From positions 1 through 26,308 of IMG/VR virus record IMGVR_UViG_3300042894_001507: DNA of 26,308 nt; one strand, given 5' to 3'. Numbering within the stretch: the stretch's first letter is position 1; each line of letters starts with the position of its first letter. This DNA is from a virus. The translations under genes were made by a program, and so were the position numbers. Positions 5,500 through 19,839 of the stretch are shown one piece after another. The notes under the pieces were generated by a model. That model worked only from the letters and a program-made list of their open reading frames with translations. It had not been told where the DNA came from and ran no database searches.

Positions 5500-7338
5500 A
5501 TGGCACTAACACCTAATTATCAACTGCCTCCTACAGGATTTGGTTCATATTTACAAGATGCTGTTCCCGAAGACATAGCAGTATCTGCCGGCGCATTTTC
5601 AGTTGCAATGCAACAGATTAAGAATATCAAGACAGTTGATATTGAAAGATTTGCACAAGTAGTTACGTCAATTGAAGTAGCAACAGCGGGATTAACTTTA
5701 GTTAATGGTACTGATGTTCCAGTAAATACGTCACTTGCAACACAAGGACAGAATATCCTAGCGTTAGGATCGGGTCCTAATGGTGGCTATACTGTTAGCG
5801 ATTTCTTTGGTTGTATGTCTGGATTACCTTATAGTTGGCAAGAGATGCAGACAAACATACAATCTGCACAAACAACAAAATTAACAAACATATATGACCA
5901 ATTGTATCTAGCAACCACTTGGGAAGGTGCAACAGTATCAGTGCAATATTCTACAGCAGCCGGCCCATTATACACAATCACCGGTCTTACGATAACTGAC
6001 GCAGGTGGTGGTTATGGTAGAGGAGGCGCAGTAGCACCTACTATATCTATTGCAGGAGGCTCAAGTGCAACAGCAACATGTACAATAGGTACTGATCCTA
6101 CTAACGCAGGCTCAAATGGTTCAGGACAATACGGTCGTGTAATTACAGTAACCCTTACATCAGCTGGTTCAGCAACTGGAACTATTCCTACAGCAACTAT
6201 TCAAGCACCACCTACTGCTACACTAGCAGTTGCAATAGATGGTAGTAAATCAACTAGTGGTATAAACACAGCATCCGGTACAACAGGTTGGCCTGGTATG
6301 GATACTGTAGTAGCAGATTACATAACACAAGCAAATACAGAAATTGCTTCAATCGCTAGTTCAAATCCTAATATAGTAAACATATTGAACACTGTTTACA
6401 ATACGGCAGGTGGACAACTATTGTCAGAACAGCGTACTAGATATGCTGCCATATCACCTGTCACATCACCTAGAGATACGTTCATCAATCAATATCCCAC
6501 AACGATGGGAATATTTACAGATATGATAGGTACATATGCTGGTTCAACCTATCCACATATGTACGCACAGACATTAGAAGCAATATCAGACTTATCCACA
6601 GCAGGTGGACAGAGTGTTGTCGCACTCATGCGTCAAGAACGTAACACTGATAGACTTCAACAAATAGGTATCACACTGGACAATATTATTCCTGTTACGA
6701 ATGAGAACATGTGCCCAGTGTTAATATCAAACGGTACTGTACCTATTGCTAAAACGGGTATTGATGTAGCAGGTATCAACGGAAACGTAGAAGATCCAGT
6801 CACAACTTACACTGTACCGGCAGTATTACAACAAAACTTAAATGGAGTAGTAACCCCAATTCCTCAAGGTTACTACGATCCAAACACAAATCAATACATT
6901 AAGTCCAATAATACTTCTTTTGCTCCCCCAATAGAAAGTATTATGAACGTATCTAAGGGTGTGATTACAAACACAAACTTGTTAGGTCCCGAGAACAATG
7001 GAACAGGCCCTGCTAGATCAATTTCTAGCACAGCATTGGGTCGTGAATCTATTCAAACAGGATCAAATGATACATCAGTCGGCGGAAGTAATGTAGTACA
7101 AATAGAACCCATAGCAGTAGTAACGGTAGGTGCAAAGGTTGCTTCTGGTCAAGGAACTCCTTTAGATACAGGAAAGGCAGAGTTCCCCGGAAGTCTAGCC
7201 GGCTCCAAAGCTAGCAACATACTACCTTGTACACTCACTACACCTTACACTTCATCAGTCTTGTTACCATCTACCTTAGATGTTGCACAAGCTATCAATG
7301 AAGTGATAAATTGTAACTGTGACTGTTGGGTTGACTAA
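5500..7338 (+). CDS. Large putative tail/baseplate structural protein with a Gly-rich beta insert
   Basis: 612 residues, no membrane segment. About residues 145-250 form a Gly/Ala/Thr-rich insert with phrases such as LTITDAGGGYG, APTISIAGGSSATATCTI and VITVTLTSAGSATGTIPTATI. This is the repeating beta-strand pattern seen in many phage tail-fibre and adhesin-like proteins. The flanking regions are more ordinary helical/beta sequence, and the C-terminus ends in Cys-rich NCNCDCWVD. A strong ribosome site (GGAAGAGGAG) precedes the ATG. Next to the PAAR and 432-residue proteins, a role in the tail tip, baseplate or receptor-binding structure is likely; the insert may be a variable, surface-exposed domain. 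Not assigned to a named family. Confidence 0.6.
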   Translation: MALTPNYQLPPTGFGSYLQDAVPEDIAVSAGAFSVAMQQIKNIKTVDIERFAQVVTSIEVATAGLTLVNGTDVPVNTSLATQGQNILALGSGPNGGYTVSDFFGCMSGLPYSWQEMQTNIQSAQTTKLTNIYDQLYLATTWEGATVSVQYSTAAGPLYTITGLTITDAGGGYGRGGAVAPTISIAGGSSATATCTIGTDPTNAGSNGSGQYGRVITVTLTSAGSATGTIPTATIQAPPTATLAVAIDGSKSTSGINTASGTTGWPGMDTVVADYITQANTEIASIASSNPNIVNILNTVYNTAGGQLLSEQRTRYAAISPVTSPRDTFINQYPTTMGIFTDMIGTYAGSTYPHMYAQTLEAISDLSTAGGQSVVALMRQERNTDRLQQIGITLDNIIPVTNENMCPVLISNGTVPIAKTGIDVAGINGNVEDPVTTYTVPAVLQQNLNGVVTPIPQGYYDPNTNQYIKSNNTSFAPPIESIMNVSKGVITNTNLLGPENNGTGPARSISSTALGRESIQTGSNDTSVGGSNVVQIEPIAVVTVGAKVASGQGTPLDTGKAEFPGSLAGSKASNILPCTLTTPYTSSVLLPSTLDVAQAINEVINCNCDCWVD

Positions 7339-8345: not shown

Positions 8346-9449
8346 ATGAGTTATTTATTTACAAGTGAGAGTGTGTCAGAAGGACATCCGGACAAAGTTG
8401 CTGATGCAATCAGCGATGCAATTTTAGATTTGATTATGGCTAACGAGGATCCTACACAACGTTGTGCATGTGAAACATTAGTAACAACTAATCAAGTGGT
8501 TGTCGCCGGAGAGTACAAAGGCTCATTACATGAACTTCAAGTTGACAGTGCGATTCGCCGTGTTGTTAAAATTATTGGTTACGAACAAGAGGGCTTCGAT
8601 TGGCGAAAGCTAACAGTTACTAATCTATTGCATGGTCAGAGTGCTGACATTGCATTAGGTACTGATAACTTTGGCGCCGGCGATCAAGGCTTGATGTTTG
8701 GTTATGCATGTAATGAGACAGAGACACACATGCCAAGTGCTATCTATTGGTCGCACCGCATTGTAGAAAAACTATCTGAGTTACGTAAGCTAGGTGGACA
8801 ATATGGATGGTTAGGTCCTGATGCTAAAAGTCAGGTTACATTTGAGTATGACGACAATAACAAACCAAAGCGAATTGCTAAGGTCGTTTGCTCTACGCAA
8901 CATAGTGCAGACGTTGATATTATTGCAGTACGCAAAGCGGTAGAAGCAATTATACGTACAATCTTACCGAGGAATTATGTAGATGACACTACTGAGTTTT
9001 TTATTAATCCTACTGGGCGTTTCGTTATTGGTGGTCCTGATGGCGACACTGGCCTTACTGGAAGAAAAATTATTGTGGATACCTATGGTGGTTATAGTGC
9101 CCATGGTGGCGGCGCTTTCAGTGGTAAAGATCCTACCAAAGTAGATCGTAGTGCCGCATACATGATGCGCTACCTCGCTAAGAATATCGTAGCAAGTGGT
9201 AAAGCAGATTGGGCTACTGTGCAAATCAGTTATGCAATCGGTCTATCACAACCTATGAGTTTCTATGTTGAAACTGCCGATGCCGCACAAGGTCGTGACT
9301 TAACTAAATGGATTCAAGACAACATTGATTTGACACCTAAAGGTATCATTGATCGTTTCAAACTTTTCAGACCTATCTATAGCAACACTACTAACTATGG
9401 TCACTTCGGTAAACCCGATCTACCATGGGAATCAATTAATTTATTCTAA
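8346..9449 (+). CDS. metK: S-adenosylmethionine synthetase
   Basis: Makes S-adenosylmethionine from methionine and ATP. At 367 residues it is nearly the length of E. coli MetK (384) and aligns end to end. Visible signatures are SEGHPDKVADAISDAILD (catalytic His14), GAGDQGLMFGYACNET, DAKSQVTF (catalytic Lys), INPTGRFVIGGPDGDTGLTG, and the Gly-rich phosphate loop GGGAFSGKDPTKVDRSAAY. The C-terminus is slightly shortened. No key residue appears lost, so it is probably active. Preceded by AAGGA and overlapping the next gene by TAATG. It may supply methylation reactions (a methyltransferase-like gene lies at 16117) or offset host SAM limitation. It is an auxiliary metabolic gene not commonly part of phage cores. 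Confidence 0.97.
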   Translation: MSYLFTSESVSEGHPDKVADAISDAILDLIMANEDPTQRCACETLVTTNQVVVAGEYKGSLHELQVDSAIRRVVKIIGYEQEGFDWRKLTVTNLLHGQSADIALGTDNFGAGDQGLMFGYACNETETHMPSAIYWSHRIVEKLSELRKLGGQYGWLGPDAKSQVTFEYDDNNKPKRIAKVVCSTQHSADVDIIAVRKAVEAIIRTILPRNYVDDTTEFFINPTGRFVIGGPDGDTGLTGRKIIVDTYGGYSAHGGGAFSGKDPTKVDRSAAYMMRYLAKNIVASGKADWATVQISYAIGLSQPMSFYVETADAAQGRDLTKWIQDNIDLTPKGIIDRFKLFRPIYSNTTNYGHFGKPDLPWESINLF

Positions 9450-10027: not shown

Positions 10028-10414
10028 ATGGCGTATTCAGAAAAAGTAGTAGATCACTATGAGAACCCTCGAAATGTAGGATCTTTTGAAAAAGGTGATG
10101 AAGATATAGGTACAGGTATGGTCGGTGCACCTGCATGCGGTGACGTTATGAAACTGCAAATTAAAGTCGATCCAACAACAGGAATTATATCAGATGCCAA
10201 ATTTAAGACATATGGGTGTGGGTCAGCGATTGCTTCAAGCAGTCTTGTCACAGAATGGGTTAAAGGCAAAACTCTCGACCAGGCAGCAACAATTAGAAAC
10301 TCACAGATCGCAGAAGAACTCAGCCTCCCCCCAGTCAAAATCCACTGCTCTATCCTCGCAGAAGATGCGATAAAAGCCGCAGTAGACGATTATAGGAAGA
10401 AACACAATGGCTAA
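10028..10414 (+). CDS. iscU: Fe-S cluster assembly scaffold IscU
   Basis: 128 residues, the same length as E. coli IscU. Cluster ligands are all present: C37 and D39 in GAPACGDVMKL, C64 in YGCGSAIASSS, and H106-C107 in KIHCSILAEDAI. The chaperone recognition motif LPPVK (100-104), bound by HscA in bacterial IscU, is intact. The protein would hold a nascent [2Fe-2S] cluster made by a host IscS-type cysteine desulfurase; no desulfurase is in the window, so host IscS/HscA is presumably used. Strong ribosome site AAAGGAG. The end overlaps the next gene by 8 bases. Finding a fully equipped scaffold in a phage is unusual. Clients in this window may include redox and lipid enzymes, although the di-iron proteins here (NrdB, desaturases) do not contain Fe-S clusters. 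Confidence 0.95.
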   Translation: MAYSEKVVDHYENPRNVGSFEKGDEDIGTGMVGAPACGDVMKLQIKVDPTTGIISDAKFKTYGCGSAIASSSLVTEWVKGKTLDQAATIRNSQIAEELSLPPVKIHCSILAEDAIKAAVDDYRKKHNG

Positions 10415-10782: not shown

Positions 10783-11322
10783 ATGAAAACAGTCGGAGAT
10801 AAATTAGAAAAATTTGCAGTCACAGGCGTCAAGCCCGGACAACCAGAAGATGCTTTCTACACTATTACAGACCAAAGCTTTGCAGGCAAGTGGAAAGTAA
10901 TCGTGTACTATCCAAAAGATTTTACATTCGTTTGCCCAACAGAAATCGTAGCATACGATAAGTTGACACAGGACTTTGCAGACCGTGACGCAGTATTGCT
11001 CACAGGTTCAACAGACAATGAGTTCTGTAAAGTAGCATGGCAGACAGCACATGCTGATTTGAAGAAAATCACACATCACCAATTTGCTGACACACAGCGT
11101 GGTGAGTTTAGCTTGATTGAACAACTTGGTGTATTTTACGCTCCAGCAGGTGCGGCATTACGTGCAACATTCATTGTTGACCCAAACAATGAAATCCAGC
11201 ACGTTACAGTCAACAACTTGAACGTTGGTCGTAGCCCAGATGAAACATTGCGTATTCTTGACGCATTGCAAACTGGTGAACTATGCCCATGCTCACGCCC
11301 AATCGGTGGTGAGACACTCTAA
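10783..11322 (+). CDS. ahpC: AhpC-type peroxiredoxin
   Basis: Reduces hydrogen peroxide and organic hydroperoxides. 179 residues with the peroxiredoxin core FTFVCPTE (peroxidatic C51, T48), the active-site Arg R127 and the partner-interaction C-terminus ELCPC (C168, C170). The CPC ending resembles AhpC proteins of the type that pairs with AhpD rather than AhpF. It is the first gene after a composite promoter, with AAGGAG upstream of the ATG. An AhpD homologue is encoded about 4.2 kb downstream on the same strand, so the phage may carry both halves of a peroxide-detoxification pair. The glutaredoxin at 3383 is another possible electron source. The stop overlaps the next start by one base (TAATG). 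Confidence 0.95.
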   Translation: MKTVGDKLEKFAVTGVKPGQPEDAFYTITDQSFAGKWKVIVYYPKDFTFVCPTEIVAYDKLTQDFADRDAVLLTGSTDNEFCKVAWQTAHADLKKITHHQFADTQRGEFSLIEQLGVFYAPAGAALRATFIVDPNNEIQHVTVNNLNVGRSPDETLRILDALQTGELCPCSRPIGGETL

Positions 11323-11957
11323 TGTCTCATTTGGTGGCAAATTTACCACCGGTGCATTGTTATATTCGCCGTGAGTTTCTTTATGATTTTCAAAAGGGCC
11401 ACGGTGAGTATGAACCTTGTATATGGGTCAGTGTAAAAAGTCTACGCAGTCAGGCATTTAGAATAGAAGCATACTTACCTAGGTACGGTGCTTTGTATGA
11501 TAAGTTGCCGCTACATGCATATGTAAGCAGAAACAAAGATTTAGATCCAGCTAAGTTTTTAGATTTGGATACACTACAAATTTGGGACTGCTTTAGCTAT
11601 GATTTTACAATCATTCAAAAAGCATTCTTGCGTAATCTGAGTTGTAAATTTTATGCCAAAGATAAAAACTTCTATCAAGGCAACTATCTTTTCACAGTAG
11701 ATCATAGTGCTCCCGACCTAAACATCATTGATACAAGCTATGCAGAATGGCCCGAGGATCATAAGAGTTTCAACTTCATTGAATTAGAAAACGGGCAATA
11801 TGCGGCACAGCCTAATAATCGTTGTATATTCTTAGACGCAGCCAGCAATCCAACGGAACTGTTATTCCCGGACTTTAAAGTAGCTACTAAAAAATATGTA
11901 GTAGAGACTAATCCCAAATGGGCATTAGGTGACACAAGTACAGTAATGTACGAATAG
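11322..11957 (+). CDS. Hypothetical phage protein
   Basis: 211 residues, soluble, rich in aromatic residues and Asp. Segments include HCYIRREFLYDFQKGHGEYEPCIWVSVKSL near the N-terminus, then SFNFIELENGQYAAQPNNRCIFLD and NPKWALGDTSTVMYE at the C-terminus. The N-terminal CYIRREFLYDF...EPCIWVSVKSL block with beta-rich flanks is distinctive but I cannot assign it. No catalytic motif or membrane segment. It is coupled to ahpC by TAATG and followed after 8 bases by the aldolase-like gene, so it belongs to the same transcription unit. It may be a conserved phage protein of unknown role. Confidence 0.55.
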   Translation: MSHLVANLPPVHCYIRREFLYDFQKGHGEYEPCIWVSVKSLRSQAFRIEAYLPRYGALYDKLPLHAYVSRNKDLDPAKFLDLDTLQIWDCFSYDFTIIQKAFLRNLSCKFYAKDKNFYQGNYLFTVDHSAPDLNIIDTSYAEWPEDHKSFNFIELENGQYAAQPNNRCIFLDAASNPTELLFPDFKVATKKYVVETNPKWALGDTSTVMYE

Positions 11958-11965
11958 GAAATTAA

Positions 11966-12586
11966 ATGTTAGAAACAATCTGTGATACAATGGTAGAAGC
12001 TTACCGTCGCAACTGGATTACTAGTCGTGATGGTAATGTAAGCATACGTCACCATGACCGAGATCATTTTTATATTACTCCGAGTGGTGTGCGTAAACAA
12101 ACCATGCAACCTGACCAGTTCAAGAAGATTAAAATTCATGGATTGTTATGGACGGATGAATTCTACACTGATATTAGTGCTAATCTCAAACCTAGCGGAG
12201 AGATTCCATTGCACTTTGGTCTACAGAGAGCGATGGGACAGCATAGTAATGATGTCCGTGTAGTAATGCACTTTCATCCTACATATTGTGTTGCGGCAAT
12301 GCACGCCGGTATTGATCTATCAACAATCGTTAACGATTTTCCTGAATTAAGTCGCTACACAAAAGTTGCACCAAATGTGCCGGATGTTCCTCCCATCAGT
12401 CAAGAATTAGCAGATGAATGTCATCGTAACTTAGAATTAGATGATTACGGTAATATTGCTTATGACATTGTAGGAATTAAAGGTCACGGGGTCGTTTCAG
12501 TTGATACTAGCCCATGGAGAGCATTTGAACATATTGAACGATTGGAGCACATTTGCCAAATCGTATTAGCATCAAGGAAATATTAA
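11966..12586 (+). CDS. Class II aldolase/adducin-family protein
   Basis: 206 residues with the zinc-site layout of the class II aldolase family (fuculose-1-phosphate aldolase, methylthioribulose-1-phosphate dehydratase MtnB). SRDGNVSIR (20-28) and ITPSGVRK (37-44) are the phosphate-binding loops, E79 in KPSGEIPLH matches the catalytic Glu, MHFHPTYC (101-108) gives two His ligands (H102, H104), and GHGVVS (173-178) gives the third. The family cleaves or dehydrates sugar phosphates. It lies just before the heptose operon; alternatively it could act in the methionine-salvage pathway next to the phage MetK. Both roles are inference. No truncation seen. Confidence 0.85.
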   Translation: MLETICDTMVEAYRRNWITSRDGNVSIRHHDRDHFYITPSGVRKQTMQPDQFKKIKIHGLLWTDEFYTDISANLKPSGEIPLHFGLQRAMGQHSNDVRVVMHFHPTYCVAAMHAGIDLSTIVNDFPELSRYTKVAPNVPDVPPISQELADECHRNLELDDYGNIAYDIVGIKGHGVVSVDTSPWRAFEHIERLEHICQIVLASRKY

Positions 12587-12587
12587 A

Positions 12588-13001
12588 ATGTTAGACTGTT
12601 TAATTATTGGAGACAGCATTGCAGTAGGCACACATATGGCTAGACCAGAATGTATTGCCTACGCTAAGGGTGGGTGGAACAGTTGGCAATGGAACAAAGA
12701 CTATTTGGCTAAGGCATCAGCACAGCCCGCTAAAACTGTGATTATTAGCTTAGGTGCAAACGATCACAAGGGTGTAAAGACTGAACAAGAACTACGCAAG
12801 ATGCGTGAAGCAATCAAGGGCGAGAGGGTGTTTTGGATCGATCCTGGCCAGGATCGAAAGCCTGTTCCGCATGACGCTATGACCCGAATCGCAAAAGAAT
12901 ACGGAGATATAATTCTGCCGCGCCCAAAAAATCATATGAGTGCTGATGGTATTCATCCTACAGGTCGAGGCTACAAAATGTTAGGAGAACAGACAAAATG
13001 A
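12588..13001 (+). CDS. SGNH hydrolase
   Basis: 137 residues, a compact member of the SGNH fold. All four blocks are visible: IIGDSIAV (nucleophile S10), the Gly block around KGGWNSW (G28/G29), LGAND (N58) and ADGIHPT (D120, H123). It should be an active esterase- or acyltransferase-type hydrolase with unknown substrate. The preceding gene supplies an AAGGA ribosome site inside its end. It stands between the aldolase-like gene and the heptose genes, so deacylation or acylation of a surface sugar is possible. It is the clearest of the three SGNH-like genes in the window. Confidence 0.85.
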   Translation: MLDCLIIGDSIAVGTHMARPECIAYAKGGWNSWQWNKDYLAKASAQPAKTVIISLGANDHKGVKTEQELRKMREAIKGERVFWIDPGQDRKPVPHDAMTRIAKEYGDIILPRPKNHMSADGIHPTGRGYKMLGEQTK

Positions 13002-13017
13002 ACTTTTACGATTATAA

Positions 13018-13410
13018 ATGAAGCGTATATTTGTTAATGGTACTTTTGATGTACTTCATTTAGGTCATTTAGCTATGTTAAATTTTGCTAAATCATTGGG
13101 CAACCACCTAGTTGTAGCGATTGATTCAGATGAACGAGTTCGTAAACTCAAAGGATCATCAAGACCCATCAACAATGTTGTTGAACGTAAAGTTATGTTA
13201 GAGAATCTTAAAGCGGTAGATCAAGTAGAAATTTTTGACACCGATGAAGATTTGATTAATATAATAAAGACCTGTGATATCATGGTCAAGGGCGGCGACT
13301 ATAAGACATTACCAATTATTGGTAAAGAATATGTTACCGTTGTTTTATTTGAAAGAATAGATGAGTACTCTAGCACGAAAAAGATTCAACATATTATTGA
13401 TCGGGGATAA
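13018..13410 (+). CDS. hldC: Heptose-1-phosphate adenylyltransferase-like nucleotidyltransferase
   Basis: 130 residues matching the adenylyltransferase half of HldE (RfaE domain 2) or stand-alone HldC. GTFDVLHLGHL contains the HxGH nucleotide-binding motif (H14, H17), RKLKGSSRPI is the family's substrate segment, and VKGGDY and DEYSSTK complete the active site. It should transfer AMP from ATP to heptose 1-phosphate to make ADP-heptose, a precursor of LPS inner core. CDP-glycerol or CDP-choline transferases share the fold, but RPI, KGGDY and EYSSTK favour the heptose enzyme. The last 50 bases overlap the kinase gene in another frame, so gene order is the reverse of the HldE fusion (kinase first). 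Confidence 0.82.
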   Translation: MKRIFVNGTFDVLHLGHLAMLNFAKSLGNHLVVAIDSDERVRKLKGSSRPINNVVERKVMLENLKAVDQVEIFDTDEDLINIIKTCDIMVKGGDYKTLPIIGKEYVTVVLFERIDEYSSTKKIQHIIDRG

Positions 13411-14128
13411 TTGTAAGGACACGTATATCTACGGTGTCGTAACACGACTTAGTCCTGAAGCCCCTGTACCAGTGTTTCAACCTAATACTGAGATTGTTCT
13501 AGAGGGCATGGCAGGTAATGTTGCTAGAAATCTAGAGGCATTACATTGTGAGGTTAAGTTTCATTACAGTGATATTAGCGAAAAGAAAAGATTAATTGAC
13601 GAACGCAGTAAGCAACATCTAATCCGTATAGATAATGATGCTAAATGCACACCCATTCTTGGGTCGTTCGTAGACGTTAACGAACTCAATACATATGATG
13701 CAGTTGTGATTAGCGACTATAATAAGGGCACTGTCCCTACATCATTGATTGAATGGGTTAGAAAAGAATACAAAGGTCCTGTGTTCATTGACACAAAGAA
13801 AACTGACTTGGCTAAGTTCAATGGTTGCTATGTAAAAATCAATCAACTAGAAAAGAATATGGCAAAGACATTACCCGATGATGAGTGGCTAATTGTCACA
13901 AAGGGGGAGAAAGGTGCAGAGTATTTAGGACACACCTTAGCTCCTGATCTTACTGACGATGTGATTGACGTTTGCGGTGCCGGGGACACATTCTTGTCTG
14001 CATTAGTTTACCGTTACTTAGACACTAAAGATATTCGCAAGGCAATTATGTTTGCTAATAAGGCGGCAGGAATTACAGTACAACACGTAGGAGTATATGC
14101 TCCTAAACTAGAGGAGTTAATACCATGA
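13361..14128 (+). CDS. hldA: PfkB-family heptose 7-phosphate kinase-like protein
   Basis: 255 residues. The N-terminus, FNILLIGDNCKDTYIYGVVTRLSPEAPVPV, then GMAGNVARNLEAL, matches the RfaE1/HldE kinase domain closely. SDYNKG (119-124) and VCGAGDTF (catalytic Asp D209) complete the ribokinase-type active site. The family normally has a ~310-residue domain, so it is shortened by about 50-60 residues, largely in the middle. Role: phosphorylates D-glycero-D-manno-heptose 7-phosphate at C1. The ATG at 13361 is chosen because the next candidate would cut the first beta strand; this makes a 50-base overlap with the adenylyltransferase. Stop overlaps the next start (ATGA). Confidence 0.82.
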   Translation: MSTLARKRFNILLIGDNCKDTYIYGVVTRLSPEAPVPVFQPNTEIVLEGMAGNVARNLEALHCEVKFHYSDISEKKRLIDERSKQHLIRIDNDAKCTPILGSFVDVNELNTYDAVVISDYNKGTVPTSLIEWVRKEYKGPVFIDTKKTDLAKFNGCYVKINQLEKNMAKTLPDDEWLIVTKGEKGAEYLGHTLAPDLTDDVIDVCGAGDTFLSALVYRYLDTKDIRKAIMFANKAAGITVQHVGVYAPKLEELIP

Positions 14129-14484
14129 GTAGATTAGAAGGTTATGTAGAAAAAGGTTGGGGACATGAGCTTATCTTTGCAACAAACGAATTGTATTGTG
14201 GCAAGGTTCTCAAGTTCAACAAAGATGCTAAATTCAGTATGCACTTTCATAGTGAAAAAGATGAGACTTGGTTTGTATTAAACGGTAAGTTCAAGGTCAG
14301 GTATATTGACACAAAAGACGCAACAGAGCATGAAGTTATATTGAATCCTAACGATGTGTGGAGAAACAAACCATTGTTTCCACATCAAGTGATTTGTTTA
14401 GAAGAGGGTGCTATAATTGAAGTCTCTACGCCTGATAGCGTGGAAGACAATTATAGAGTGTATAAAGGAGATAGTCAGAAATGA
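14125..14484 (+). CDS. Cupin-domain protein, sugar-metabolism type
   Basis: 119-residue single cupin. KGWGHELIFATNELYCGKVL near the start resembles the phosphomannose-isomerase-like cupins that begin with PWG. MHFHSEKDETWFVLNGKF supplies the metal-binding HxH...E of motif 1, and PHQVICLEEGAIIEVSTP gives motif 2. In the heptose operon it could act as a sugar isomerase or epimerase; it cannot be assigned to GmhA, which has an unrelated SIS fold. Coupled to both neighbours by four-base ATGA overlaps. Confidence 0.75.
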   Translation: MSRLEGYVEKGWGHELIFATNELYCGKVLKFNKDAKFSMHFHSEKDETWFVLNGKFKVRYIDTKDATEHEVILNPNDVWRNKPLFPHQVICLEEGAIIEVSTPDSVEDNYRVYKGDSQK

Positions 14485-14777
14485 AAGTGTATATGGTTGA
14501 TATAGATAACACTATTTGTATAAGCAATGGTAGTGATTATGCAAATAGCAAACCTATGATAGAACGTATTGAAAAGATAAATGAATTGTACAGTCAAGGT
14601 CACAAGATCATTTATTGGACAGCCCGTGGCGGTAATAGCGGCATTGACTGGACAGATAAAACACATAGTCAATTAGCAGCCTGGGGCTGTAGATATGATG
14701 AAATTCGTATGGGAAAGCCTCCCTATGATGTATGGGTAGATGACAAGGCTATTAACTCTGAGGATTTCTTCAAGTGA
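14481..14777 (+). CDS. Small HAD-superfamily phosphatase
   Basis: 98 residues. Motif I is DIDNT (D7, D9), motif II YWTARG (T48), motif III K79 in GKPPYD and motif IV DD (87-88) in WVDDKA, so it is a compact HAD phosphatase with the full set of catalytic residues and no evident cap domain. By position it could take the place of GmhB, which removes the 7-phosphate from heptose 1,7-bisphosphate. That role is inferred from the neighbours; its sequence alone does not separate it from capsule-type phosphatases. Coupled by overlaps on both sides, including GTGA to the epimerase gene. Confidence 0.8.
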   Translation: MKVYMVDIDNTICISNGSDYANSKPMIERIEKINELYSQGHKIIYWTARGGNSGIDWTDKTHSQLAAWGCRYDEIRMGKPPYDVWVDDKAINSEDFFK

Positions 14778-15565
14778 AAATTTTATTAACAGGACATAAA
14801 GGCTTTATTGGCTCTAACATGCTTAACGCATTGAAAGATCACGAAGTCACTACATTCGAATGGGGTGATTCGTTGCCTAGTGTCGAAGGACATCAATGGG
14901 TCATTCATATGGGTGCTAATAGTTCTACTACTGAACGTGATATTGAAAAGATTATGCACCAGAACGTTGACTTCAGTGTGTGGTTACTAAATCAGTGTAT
15001 TAAGCATGGTGTAGACTTTCAATATTCAAGCAGTGCTAGCGTATATGGTATGCGTAAAGAAAATTTTGCAGAGACTGAACCTGTTGACCCTCGTAACCCT
15101 TATGCCTGGACAAAGTACTTGTTTGAACGTCACGTTAACAATATTGACCCTAAGAAGCTTAATAACATTCGCATTCAAGGTTTCAGATACTTTAATGTCT
15201 ATGGTCCCGGTGAAGATCACAAAGAAGGTCAAGCAAGTCCTCACCACACATTCACTAGACAAGCAAAAGCAACTGGTATTATAAGACTGTTTGAAAACAG
15301 CGAGAATTATAAACGAGATTTTGTACCTGTAGAACTAGTAACAGATTACCACCAAAGATTCTTTGACGTAAAAGAATCTGGTGTGTGGAATATAGGTACA
15401 GGAAAACCTGTAAGTTTTGAGCAAGTAGCACGAAACATTGCAGAACAATACGGAGCTAAGATAGATTATATCCCAATGCCCGCAAAACTCAAAGATAGTT
15501 ACCAAACTTATACATGTGCAGACATGTCAAAAACACTAACAAGCTTACAAAATAAAGGAGAATAA
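14774..15565 (+). CDS. hldD: ADP-L-glycero-D-manno-heptose 6-epimerase-like SDR enzyme
   Basis: 263 residues, extended short-chain dehydrogenase/reductase. The NAD(P) motif GHKGFIGS (7-14) follows the first strand. GANSSTTE, SSSASVYG, the catalytic Y110-x3-K114 and FRYFNVYGPGEDHKEG, then NYKRDFVPVE and NIGTGKPVSF and LKDSYQTYTCAD align closely with E. coli HldD (310 aa), except that about 45 residues are missing, mostly near the N-terminal third. HldD converts ADP-D-glycero- to ADP-L-glycero-D-manno-heptose for LPS core. The start is GTG at 14774, overlapping the previous stop (GTGA). Followed by AAAGGAG and ahpD. Confidence 0.85.
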   Translation: MKILLTGHKGFIGSNMLNALKDHEVTTFEWGDSLPSVEGHQWVIHMGANSSTTERDIEKIMHQNVDFSVWLLNQCIKHGVDFQYSSSASVYGMRKENFAETEPVDPRNPYAWTKYLFERHVNNIDPKKLNNIRIQGFRYFNVYGPGEDHKEGQASPHHTFTRQAKATGIIRLFENSENYKRDFVPVELVTDYHQRFFDVKESGVWNIGTGKPVSFEQVARNIAEQYGAKIDYIPMPAKLKDSYQTYTCADMSKTLTSLQNKGE

Positions 15566-15566
15566 A

Positions 15567-16124
15567 ATGGAAGCAATCGCATCAGTACCCCCAATTACCA
15601 TTGGTGGCAATTGGGTAGATCAAGTTAAAGATAGTATCCCTGACACAGCAAAAGATATTCGTTTGAACCTGGATAGTGTTATCAATCGTAGTCCGTTTGA
15701 TCCAGTAGATACACACGCAATCGCATACGTGTCTGCATTGGCTTCAAGTAATGGCGGTCTAGCATTTGAGATTGAAATGAACGGTCCATTGTTCAATGAC
15801 GAAGTAGCACGTGAGGCAGCAAAGACCGCGGCCGCATTGATGGGCCAAAACAACGTATGGTATCCATTCGTTGAAATGTGTGATGATCCTGAATTAAAGG
15901 GATTGCCTGCAGGCCTACGTATGAACGCATATGCTAACAACGGTGGCACAACTAAGAAGCAATTTGAAATGTACACCTTAGCCGCAAGTATTATCGGTAA
16001 GTGCCACTTCTGTGTTAAAGCACACTATGAAGCATTGAAGAAAGAAGGCTTGACTGTGCAACAGTTACAGCACATTGGTAAGATTGCGGCGACTATCAAC
16101 GCAATCGGCAAAGTAGCTATTTGA
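15567..16124 (+). CDS. ahpD: AhpD-family alkylhydroperoxidase
   Basis: 185 residues. The signature KCHFCVKAHYE gives redox C146 and C149 and H153, with an upstream Glu at 134. This matches the proton-relay layout of mycobacterial AhpD (C130, C133, H137, E118), although the position-132 His is shifted: here CHFC rather than CSHC. AhpD recycles AhpC or acts itself as a weak peroxidase; the phage AhpC at 10783 has the AhpD-type CPC tail. It ends the heptose operon, and its 3' end overlaps the convergent methyltransferase gene by eight bases, leaving no room for a terminator. The pairing with AhpC is inference. Confidence 0.9.
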   Translation: MEAIASVPPITIGGNWVDQVKDSIPDTAKDIRLNLDSVINRSPFDPVDTHAIAYVSALASSNGGLAFEIEMNGPLFNDEVAREAAKTAAALMGQNNVWYPFVEMCDDPELKGLPAGLRMNAYANNGGTTKKQFEMYTLAASIIGKCHFCVKAHYEALKKEGLTVQQLQHIGKIAATINAIGKVAI

Positions 16125-17715: not shown

Positions 17716-18305
17716 TTAATAGTAGTCCAGTCAAATTCAAAGTTTTTGTCAAGCTTTTCGTATATAACCCACTGCGGGGTGTATTGAATCATTACAAGGA
17801 ATAGAACTTCTTCTACACCGGTGTAGAACATATGCTTTGGTTCTCTGTTATTGATTCTGTTGTTCTTCTCACCCAATCGATTACGTTTGAAGATTTCTAT
17901 GATGTTTTTATTGTAGTCATTGAATGAAAGTGCTACCAACTTAACTTGTCGTTCTATGCACCATTTTTTATGTTCTACTAATAGATAGTCCCTATGTAGT
18001 GACAAATGACGATAAGTTTGGTCAACCCAAGTTCTGACGCCTGCTAATGCAATGTCACTATTGAAATCACTTATATAAACTCCACCACAGGCGGCTATTT
18101 TGTCACCGTCAAACAAGACAAAGAATTCTCCGTTTACTCCGTTGAACCTGTTAGTGTTCTCTAGTATGTAGGGAAGCGTATGCTGATTATTCACATCGTC
18201 ACTCCACATATTTGATGACGATTGTTTGTCATGCAATAATGATTGTTCCTTGCAAAAAGTAAGGAACTGTTGTTTATCTATTGATTTGTAGGTCTTTATT
18301 TGCAT
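17709..18305 (-). CDS. GNAT-like acetyltransferase
   Basis: 198 residues from the ATG at 18305. A central beta-strand block (GEFFVLFDGDKIAACGGVYIS), followed by a WVDQTYRHLSLHRDYLLVEHKKWCIE helix, then VKLVALSFNDYNKNIIEIFKRN, has the N-acetyltransferase order, although the usual QxxGxG/A acetyl-CoA loop is not clear. It leads the minus-strand operon behind a perfect TATAAATA box. Upstream in-frame ATGs at 18344 and 18359 would overlap the divergent desaturase and bypass this promoter; 18305 with CAAGAA upstream fits better. Substrate unknown. Confidence 0.55.
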   Translation of the reverse strand: MQIKTYKSIDKQQFLTFCKEQSLLHDKQSSSNMWSDDVNNQHTLPYILENTNRFNGVNGEFFVLFDGDKIAACGGVYISDFNSDIALAGVRTWVDQTYRHLSLHRDYLLVEHKKWCIERQVKLVALSFNDYNKNIIEIFKRNRLGEKNNRINNREPKHMFYTGVEEVLFLVMIQYTPQWVIYEKLDKNFEFDWTTIKC

Positions 18306-18321
18306 GGGCGTATTCTTGTAA

Positions 18322-18335
18322 GATAAATATTTATA
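18322..18335. promoter_or_regulatory. Overlapping divergent late promoters (palindromic box)
   Basis: On the minus strand TATAAATA (18335-18328) precedes the GNAT-like gene at 18305. On the plus strand GATAAATA (18322-18329) ends five bases before the desaturase ATG at 18335. The shared core is the 12-bp palindrome ATAAATATTTAT, so a single site can be read in both directions. The plus box would place the transcript start at or near the ATG. Confidence 0.55.
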
Positions 18336-19087
18336 TGTTTTCATCCAATGCCCAAACAATTACCAAAATTCAAATGATTACCGGATTGTTGTCAATAGCC
18401 GGGCTATTTTATTTCGACTTTACTCTGTCAAACGTTATCTTGCTACTTGTTAGTTTCTACATTTACAGTGTTATAGGGGTTGGCTTAACACTACACAGAT
18501 ACTATTCACATAAATCATTTGAATTTAGATTTGAATTTATGAAATGGATATGTACATTTATTGCAATACTATCCGGACGAGCTAGTATCCTAGGATGGGT
18601 TTATGTTCATAGATTGCATCACGCACACTCTGACACTGAAAAGGACCCGCACGGCCCCGGCAACATTGGATTTAAATTGTTTAACTTCAAACACATAGAA
18701 TCTACTGCAGGAAAGATGAATGTATTCTTAGTCAAGGACTTAATGAACAAACAGCATATTTTTATACACGATTACTATCTTGCTATAATCTTGGCATTCG
18801 TTTTTGTCTTAGCTATATTTGGTCTAGACGTAGCGTATTTCGTTTGGGTTCTACCCGTGTTTTTAGTACAAATGAGCCAGAATAGTTTTAACTATTTTGC
18901 ACATACATATGGTTATAGAAACTACGAGACAAAAGATACCAGTAGTAACAACGCATTGTTATGGCCGTTGATAATGGGTGATGCTTGGCATAACAATCAT
19001 CACGGTAATCCTGCTTCTATGACTACACAAATGAAATGGTGGGAAATTGATCCTGCTGGTTATCTTATTAGGATGATTAGAAGATGA
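18335..19087 (+). CDS. Membrane fatty-acid (acyl-CoA/acyl-lipid) desaturase, first of a tandem pair
   Basis: 250 residues with membrane stretches around 13-28, 32-54, 70-90, 145-180. Di-iron His boxes: H54-x4-H59 in HRYYSHKSF, H92-x2-HH in HRLHHAHSD, H190 (AHTYG) and H219-x2-HH in HNNHHGNP. This is the delta-9 type desaturase layout, which inserts a cis double bond into acyl chains using oxygen. I chose ATG 18335 rather than an ORF extension to 18281, which would lie over the divergent gene. The first ~45 residues are more divergent from the second copy. The stop overlaps the next start (ATGA). A role in changing host membrane or virion lipids is inferred. Confidence 0.9.
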   Translation: MFSSNAQTITKIQMITGLLSIAGLFYFDFTLSNVILLLVSFYIYSVIGVGLTLHRYYSHKSFEFRFEFMKWICTFIAILSGRASILGWVYVHRLHHAHSDTEKDPHGPGNIGFKLFNFKHIESTAGKMNVFLVKDLMNKQHIFIHDYYLAIILAFVFVLAIFGLDVAYFVWVLPVFLVQMSQNSFNYFAHTYGYRNYETKDTSSNNALLWPLIMGDAWHNNHHGNPASMTTQMKWWEIDPAGYLIRMIRR

Positions 19088-19839
19088 AACAATATTTGTA
19101 TCCAAGAGAATGGTTTTTCATAGTAATGCAGGTTATTGCTAGCATTGTCACAGTGTGGGCAATCTTTAATCCTGCAGGGATAAATTATTGGTTGACAGCG
19201 TTGTTTGGCTACTTTTTGATAACATGCTTAGGAGTGTCTGTCACGTTTCATAGACTATTAACTCACAAATCCTACAAATTAGCGAAACCATTAGAATATG
19301 TTTTTAGCTATCTAGGAAATTTAGGATGCACAGGTAGTTCTGTGGGTTGGGTCTTTGTACATAGAACACATCACAAATTTGCAGACAAGCCCGGCGATCC
19401 TCATAGTCCTGTTGTCATGGGCCCATTAGGGGCAATAATTGGAGACTATACAAGCAAGTTTAATAAGTGGGGAGTCAGAGATATCATCAATGATCCTGTA
19501 CATAGATTCATGCATGAATATTACATGCTAGTAGTATTAGCAACAGTGCTTGTTCTATACATGATTGATCCATTGTTATCTGTTTATCTATTCTGGATTC
19601 CAATGTTCTTAAACACAGTAGCGTCTAGATTGAGTAACTGGATCGACCATGACCCTAAATTTGGTACAAGATCCGATAAAAGCAAAGATCAATCTCATAA
19701 TGTCTGGTGGTGGGCATTGTTAACATTCGGTGAAGGTTGGCACAACAATCATCATTTATATCCCGGTGACTATAGAATCGGAAGAAAATGGTGGCAAATT
19801 GATATCGGTGCGTATGTCATACACCTAGTGCGTAAATAA
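19084..19839 (+). CDS. Membrane fatty-acid desaturase, second of the pair
   Basis: 251 residues with the same architecture. His boxes H56-x4-H61 in HRLLTHKSYK, H93-x2-HH in HRTHHKFAD, H189 (WIDHDP) and H220-x2-HH in HNNHHLYPG; the hydrophobic N-terminal helices and PHSP/DPHG loops are preserved. The same-length neighbour suggests an old duplication with divergence, perhaps to act on different positions or chain lengths. Coupled to the first by ATGA. The 27 bases to the convergent PP-loop gene are AT-rich and hold no hairpin-plus-U terminator that I can see. Confidence 0.9.
   Translation: MKQYLYPREWFFIVMQVIASIVTVWAIFNPAGINYWLTALFGYFLITCLGVSVTFHRLLTHKSYKLAKPLEYVFSYLGNLGCTGSSVGWVFVHRTHHKFADKPGDPHSPVVMGPLGAIIGDYTSKFNKWGVRDIINDPVHRFMHEYYMLVVLATVLVLYMIDPLLSVYLFWIPMFLNTVASRLSNWIDHDPKFGTRSDKSKDQSHNVWWWALLTFGEGWHNNHHLYPGDYRIGRKWWQIDIGAYVIHLVRK

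Follow-up and report, generated by a model that had tools for sequence, protein, structure and literature searches.

The canonical heptose set consists of GmhA, HldE, GmhB and HldD, and carriage of a heptose cassette by phages is already known. In the cyanophage P-SSM2, the families T4-GC 304–308 (PSSM2_309–313) comprise a nucleotidyltransferase (NTase), a kinase, a HAD protein, a cupin and an epimerase; the same five families occur, in varied order, in S-SSM7, S-CAM1, Sf-FS3 and P-TIM68. Within the stretches read, S-T4 and Sf-CH8 hold the NTase, kinase, HAD and cupin genes, and S-SM2 those of the NTase, kinase, HAD and epimerase. The gene rfaE has been reported in pelagimyophages (PMC7029224), and the announcement of cyanophage SynMITS9220M01 lists a heptose kinase, a “phosphoheptose isomerase” and an epimerase (PMC7378029). 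Functional nucleoside diphosphate (NDP)-heptose enzymes of viruses were described by Tang et al. (2024), in whose summarised account the phosphatase is absent from viruses (PMC11461863, PMC11573728). Here we describe a cassette of the same five families at positions 13018–15565 of the IMG/VR virus record IMGVR_UViG_3300042894_001507. The window analysed is this entire record of 26,308 bp, with no flanking sequence beyond it. The novelty lies in how cupin and GmhA genes are distributed across phage loci.

The five genes of the cassette are:

13018..13410, + strand: NTase of the HldE C-terminal-domain type (TIGR02199, 111 bits; phrog_7878; PDB 5x9q/5xf2, 1coz)
13361..14128, + strand: compact heptose-7-phosphate kinase (255 aa) of the HldE N-terminal-domain/PfkB type (TIGR02198, 142 bits; PDB 4e84)
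14125..14484, + strand: metal-binding-type cupin, proposed sedoheptulose-7-phosphate isomerase (TIGR04366 (WbuC), 28 bits; invariant metal motif)
14481..14777, + strand: small HAD phosphatase, EcbF/BcbF-like, proposed heptose-1,7-bisphosphate 7-phosphatase (TIGR01689, 45 bits; phrog_1238; PDB 9iqw, 1xpj)
14774..15565, + strand: HldD-type NDP-heptose 6-epimerase (TIGR02197, 228 bits; PDB 1eq2/2x6t, E 1e-48)

On balance, we favour the interpretation that these genes specify a complete phage pathway to NDP-heptose, with the cupin as a non-orthologous replacement of GmhA and with catalytic activities assigned from sequence. The cupin (14125) would convert sedoheptulose 7-phosphate (S7P) to D-glycero-D-manno-heptose 7-phosphate, from which the kinase (13361) would form heptose-1,7-bisphosphate. 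After removal of the 7-phosphate by the small HAD (14481), the NTase (13018) would produce NDP-D-glycero-D-manno-heptose, probably the ADP and possibly the CDP or UDP derivative, and the epimerase (14774) would convert it to the L-glycero form. Most likely, the product would be used by host or phage glycosyltransferases acting on the host surface glycan. Support for this scheme comes from the families and key residues of the putative kinase, NTase and epimerase, from the conserved operon, from the absence of GmhA, and from the exchange of phosphatases in one slot.

Comparison with described heptose systems

The kinase/cupin, cupin/HAD and HAD/epimerase genes overlap by 4 nt each, and the NTase and kinase genes by 50 nt. 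The first-pass annotation had proposed a near-complete ADP-heptose operon, “fully coupled by short overlaps” and devoid of a GmhA-type isomerase. All of its open reading frames (ORFs) are present on the + strand, family and conservation evidence agrees with the assignment to a heptose cassette, and a profile search of the contig likewise found no GmhA or SIS protein. The short coupling applies to the three 4-nt overlaps, not to the NTase/kinase pair. “Near-complete” probably undersells the operon, as the cupin ranks as a strong candidate for the isomerase that seemed to be lacking.

Gene order, overlaps and proteins are kept at 73–97% identity in five further IMG/VR contigs, a degree of conservation that far exceeds chance expectation, and one more contig is identical; the 50-nt overlap is identical in the relatives. 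A kinase-based search identified at least 562 confirmed viral contigs that encode the kinase, and 87 loci were studied in detail. These data bear on the idea that the cassette is a decaying or transient acquisition without function. The epimerase, which ends about 30 residues short of the C-terminus of HldD, would fit that idea, but all frames are open, order and overlaps persist in contigs of such divergence, and the motifs of the widespread kinase are intact in nearly all cases, making decay highly improbable.

The T4-GC 304–308 cassette of cyanophages resembles that of the window in the NTase–kinase order, usually with overlapping genes, in the adjacency of the cupin and HAD genes, and in the lack of GmhA or SIS proteins in the whole genomes; the proteins share 32–51% identity with those of the window. 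The cupin gene precedes the HAD gene in the window but follows it in the cyanophage cassette, and the epimerase gene, which is on the same strand in the window, is on the opposite strand in P-SSM2, S-CAM1 and S-SSM7. Unlike the cyanophages, the phage of the window has an NrdA protein nearest to those of Xanthomonas/Stenotrophomonas phages.

Compared to the canonical set, the kinase, NTase and epimerase are homologous and conserve key residues, whereas HldE is represented by two separate, shortened proteins whose order is reversed, GmhA is absent, GmhB is replaced by the small EcbF-like HAD, and a cupin is added. Like the window, the viral enzymes of Tang et al. (2024) represent virus-encoded heptose biosynthesis, including some NTases with an arginine at position –5 (STTR5). 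As far as that study is summarised, however, the cassettes considered here differ in holding three types of phosphatase, which would fill the “missing phosphatase” of the cross-kingdom survey, and in that their first step appears as a cupin (PMC11461863, PMC11573728).

Kinase, nucleotidyltransferase, epimerase and phosphatases

Proteins were assigned to families by the best NCBIfam model. The kinase scored 142 bits with TIGR02198 (HldE domain I) versus 48 bits for ribokinase, the NTase 111 bits with TIGR02199 (HldE domain II) versus 55 bits for glycerol-3-phosphate cytidylyltransferase, and the epimerase 228.5 bits with TIGR02197 (HldD) versus 78 bits for GalE. The curated cut-offs of these three models are 345, 181.5 and 274.6 bits, respectively. 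None of the five cassette proteins reached a curated NCBIfam cut-off, which we attribute to the divergence and shortening of the phage proteins. The kinase, being shortened and scoring below 345 bits, is best classed as HldE-like, the NTase as HldE-C-like and the epimerase as HldD-like, rather than as full family members.

Although about 60 residues shorter than the N-terminal domain of HldE, the compact kinase retains the RLSPEAPVPV and GAGD motifs, and its top PDB match is the heptose-7-phosphate kinase 4e84; RxSPEAPVPV and GAGD are both present in 83 of the 87 phage kinases. The NTase shows the GxFDxxHxGH and KGGD motifs, with N7, H14, H17 and G92/D94 invariant across the phage set. In the epimerase, the YxxxK motif corresponds to Y110/K114, and K150 is the second lysine. 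Y110 and K150 show no variation across 10 phage sequences and occupy the alignment positions of Y140 and K178, the catalytic bases of E. coli HldD. The presence of K150 thus favours a C6 epimerase acting on heptose.

The shortening of the kinase, the scores under the curated cut-offs and the deviation of the NTase from canonical HldE at position –5 would also be compatible with a different activated sugar, for which the compact kinase and the NTase would have shifted in substrate and which the HldD-like and cupin proteins would tailor. This seems unlikely, as heptose enzymes are the top matches by wide margins, the HldD-specific lysine is retained, and a GmhB-like phosphatase fills the phosphatase slot in 15 loci.

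The deviating residue of the window NTase is R113, an arginine located five residues before SST (RIDEYSST). By an approximate count with a regular-expression motif, arginine occupies this position in 59 of 85 phage NTases, as compared to 1 of 39 canonical ones. Since arginine at –5 has been linked to the use of CTP and UTP besides ATP (PMC11461863), the identity of the product as an ADP sugar is uncertain; it may be ADP-, CDP- or UDP-heptose. Of the name “ADP-heptose” given in the first-pass annotation, the heptose part is supported by the enzyme families, and the ADP part is uncertain. The enzyme identities proposed there are supported for the kinase, the NTase and the HldD-type epimerase, which keep the key residues of heptose families. 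The HAD is not GmhB by family.

The window holds no member of the heptosyltransferase family Glyco_transf_9; some relatives show weak or partial Glyco_transf_9 matches and GT2 genes elsewhere. On these grounds no transferase was assigned as consumer of the product; we infer that modification of a surface glycan is its likeliest use. LPS remodelling, virion glycosylation or raised levels of ADP-heptose, as suggested in the first-pass annotation, would be possible roles.

The small HAD found its best family in TIGR01689 (EcbF/BcbF) and did not match the GmhB profile TIGR00213. One of three phosphatases is present in 39 of the 87 compact-kinase loci, namely the small HAD (15 loci), a GmhB-like protein (15) or an NT5C-like HAD (9), and two types never occur together in one locus. 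On the kinase tree, the phosphatase state changes at least 10 times among the viral rows; for the 37 compact-kinase rows, a count of 10 changes compares with a mean of 16.5 and a minimum of 12 after shuffling. As the phosphatases that swap in the same slot are unrelated and one of them is GmhB-like, their recurrent exchange provides good evidence that the small HAD would perform the GmhB step.

This small HAD is also the protein that bears the name “phosphoheptose isomerase” in GenBank records of cyanophages (positions 6731–7075 of locus L008, and homologues; GC306, phrog_1238), with EcbF-BcbF as best family. Its interpretation as GmhA was rejected; the protein is a HAD, and the genomes contain neither GmhA nor SIS_2 (E values up to 1). 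The name is a misannotation that has spread through GenBank and PHROGs. It has also found its way into the marine phage literature, possibly with an effect on surveys that rely on “gmhA” as a viral marker; phosphoheptose isomerase [gmhA] served as such in a marine long-read survey (PMC9238414).

The cupin and the absence of GmhA

Of the 87 compact-kinase phage loci, the NTase is present in 84, the cupin in 81, including two in which it is fused to the NTase, and the HldD-type epimerase in 66 by clustering (68 by profile). The cupin gene is on the kinase strand in all 81 loci, overlaps or adjoins in 46, and is no more than 1.4 kb away in 80. GmhA was not found near the compact kinase in any of the 87 loci. 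Profile searches of whole records for GmhA (TIGR00441) gave 0/16 and 0/50, and a search of 16 whole records for SIS_2, with E values up to 1, was equally negative. A search of this type did detect GmhA beside canonical bacterial hldE, which served as the positive control. GmhA is encoded in 160 viral contigs; 80 of these were fetched, 15 of which contain a heptose kinase, and none of the 15 has the cupin. Across loci, this results in a tally of 81 with cupin only, 15 with GmhA only, none with both and 6 with neither, or 57, 12, 0 and 6, respectively, after thinning at 80% kinase identity.

The protein has a cupin fold with the metal-binding motif HxHx4Ex6G...H of phosphomannose and D-lyxose isomerase cupins; H40xH42x4E47x6G54 and H87 are invariant in 52 cupin sequences. 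Sub-threshold matches to MannoseP_isomer (46/52), Lyx_isomer (45/52) and GMP_PMI (47/52) recur in this set, alongside weak matches to cupins of a general kind, oxalate decarboxylase for example. Structural neighbours of the AlphaFold2 model of the cupin (predicted local distance difference test score, 93.6) include mannose-type isomerases (7zvm, Z 14.6; 7nzq, Z 13.9), with the phosphomannose isomerase of Thermococcus and the D-lyxose isomerase of Thermofilum among them. The phage cupin thus resembles the phosphomannose and D-lyxose/D-mannose isomerase cupins in fold, metal motif and recurrent weak family matches, but it shares only 14–23% identity with them, below curated thresholds. In two loci, the cupin and the NTase are fused into one ORF (L191, 7271–8047; L196, 749–1531), an arrangement resembling that of ManC/AlgA, in which an NTase is fused to a cupin phosphomannose isomerase. 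Moreover, the conversion of S7P to heptose 7-phosphate is the one-carbon homologue of that of fructose 6-phosphate to mannose 6-phosphate, a reaction that known cupin isomerases catalyse.

With other proteins covering all steps but one of the five, elimination, co-occurrence, NTase fusion and chemistry together suggest the cupin as the replacement of the consistently absent GmhA, at about even odds. A number of observations weigh against the proposed pathway. The cupin does not reach the curated cut-off of an isomerase family, and CapF, quercetinase and KdgF superpose on its model almost as well as the isomerases. Cupins of many functions match alike, so fold alone leaves the function of the protein undecided; with hundreds of matching cupins, the fold search was set aside as an arbiter. 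Mapped onto the kinase tree, the isomerase state requires a single change within the viral rows and two in total; the mutual exclusion of cupin and GmhA therefore represents about one evolutionary event, which accompanied the compact kinase; a reading of the exclusivity as many independent events was rejected on this basis. Besides, the cupin and GmhA sets of loci were collected by different queries. Two phages (L261 and L281) hold this cupin beside a different NTase, with no kinase found and with GmhA about 5 kb away, and the contig L098 (6488–13281) from a metagenome-assembled genome holds a SIS protein together with the compact kinase, the NTase and the cupin. Together with the six compact-kinase loci that have neither cupin nor GmhA, these cases allow for a different function of the cupin. 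Finally, 50 of the 87 loci have none of the three phosphatases nearby.

L098 also contains a GHMP-type kinase (by eye) and a fusion of HAD and nucleotidyltransferase, and resembles a GDP-heptose route.

Another role of the cupin is central to the possibility that the cassette boosts a host pathway, the phage providing kinase, phosphatase, NTase and epimerase while host GmhA supplies heptose 7-phosphate; the cupin would then serve in product modification, sugar binding or regulation. Gram-negative hosts with heptose-containing lipopolysaccharide (LPS) possess GmhA, isomerases do not stand out in the fold search, and the cupin does occur alongside GmhA in L261 and L281. We nevertheless consider a host boost possible rather than probable, because the cupin, with 81 occurrences in the 87 loci, is a steadier member than the epimerase, with 66, and is twice fused to the NTase. 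Furthermore, cyanophages carry the cassette, yet three quarters of the sampled genomes of the Prochlorococcus AG-409-P03 family (113 of 151, of unreported completeness and with the hosts of particular cyanophages not identified among them) lacked a GmhA match at E 0.001, with only a single genome reaching the cut-off. A phage isomerase would be unneeded if GmhA were present in every host, but for cyanophages at least, host supply of GmhA appears unreliable.

Extended to the at least 562 contigs, the proposed pathway would mean that a large phage lineage including T4-like cyanophages makes NDP-heptose independently of host heptose genes, using an exchangeable phosphatase and a so far unrecognised S7P isomerase of cupin type that has no relation to GmhA; we judge the chances for and against this broader statement to be balanced. 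Should the cupin prove to be the isomerase, NDP-heptose could be made by phages in hosts without GmhA, which would account for the lack of GmhA in the cassettes of cyanophages and other T4-like phages alike. There would also be a second, unrelated enzyme for a step under investigation as a drug target, and the LPS genes long known from marine phages would become testable as a minimal five-enzyme system.

Source contig and neighbouring genes

NrdA, NrdB and glutaredoxin, among other genes of the contig, point to a T4-like phage. The closest relatives of its NrdA are from Xanthomonas and Stenotrophomonas phages, and comparison at the nucleotide level with phage records gave no match to any named phage. 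The NrdA gene is truncated by the contig start (1–1480; 490 aa versus 771 aa in the relative contig G005). Genes for a TctC/Bug-type receptor and for a periplasmic binding protein of phosphate type (L018, 11694–12584; L017, 11678–12688) in G005, a close relative, hint at a betaproteobacterial host. Three tRNA genes (Gln, Glu, Phe) are located at the contig end (25904–26237).

Three genes next to the cassette lie outside the proposed pathway:

11966..12586, + strand: class II aldolase, upstream neighbour, non-core (PF00596, E 2e-30; 5/87 loci)
12588..13001, + strand: SGNH/GDSL hydrolase, upstream neighbour, non-core (PF13472, E 2e-8; 6/87 loci)
15567..16124, + strand: AhpD-like alkylhydroperoxidase, transcript neighbour outside the pathway (TIGR00777, 111 bits; 11/87 loci)

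The aldolase was considered as a sugar source and dropped as a core member in view of its presence in only five loci. The AhpD-like gene starts 1 nt past the epimerase stop, and the cassette is bracketed by this gene and an AhpC gene (10783–11322); AhpC-like genes occur in 10 of the 87 related loci.

Further upstream, the protein encoded at 11322–11957 belongs to phrog_3704, which carries the label “ferredoxin” (281 bits), yet it has no Pfam or NCBIfam match. A phage IscU is encoded at 10028–10414 (TIGR01999, 221 bits, exceeding the cut-off of 192 bits; phrog_8429, NifU-like). In L261 and L281, IscU is grouped with ferredoxin- and IscA-like genes (by eye) beside GmhA. By eye, the gene at 8346–9449 is a candidate for a MetK-like S-adenosylmethionine synthetase, conserved at 82–88% in relatives, and two neighbouring genes at 18281–19839 resemble fatty acid desaturases, with histidine boxes and with homologues in all five distinct relatives.

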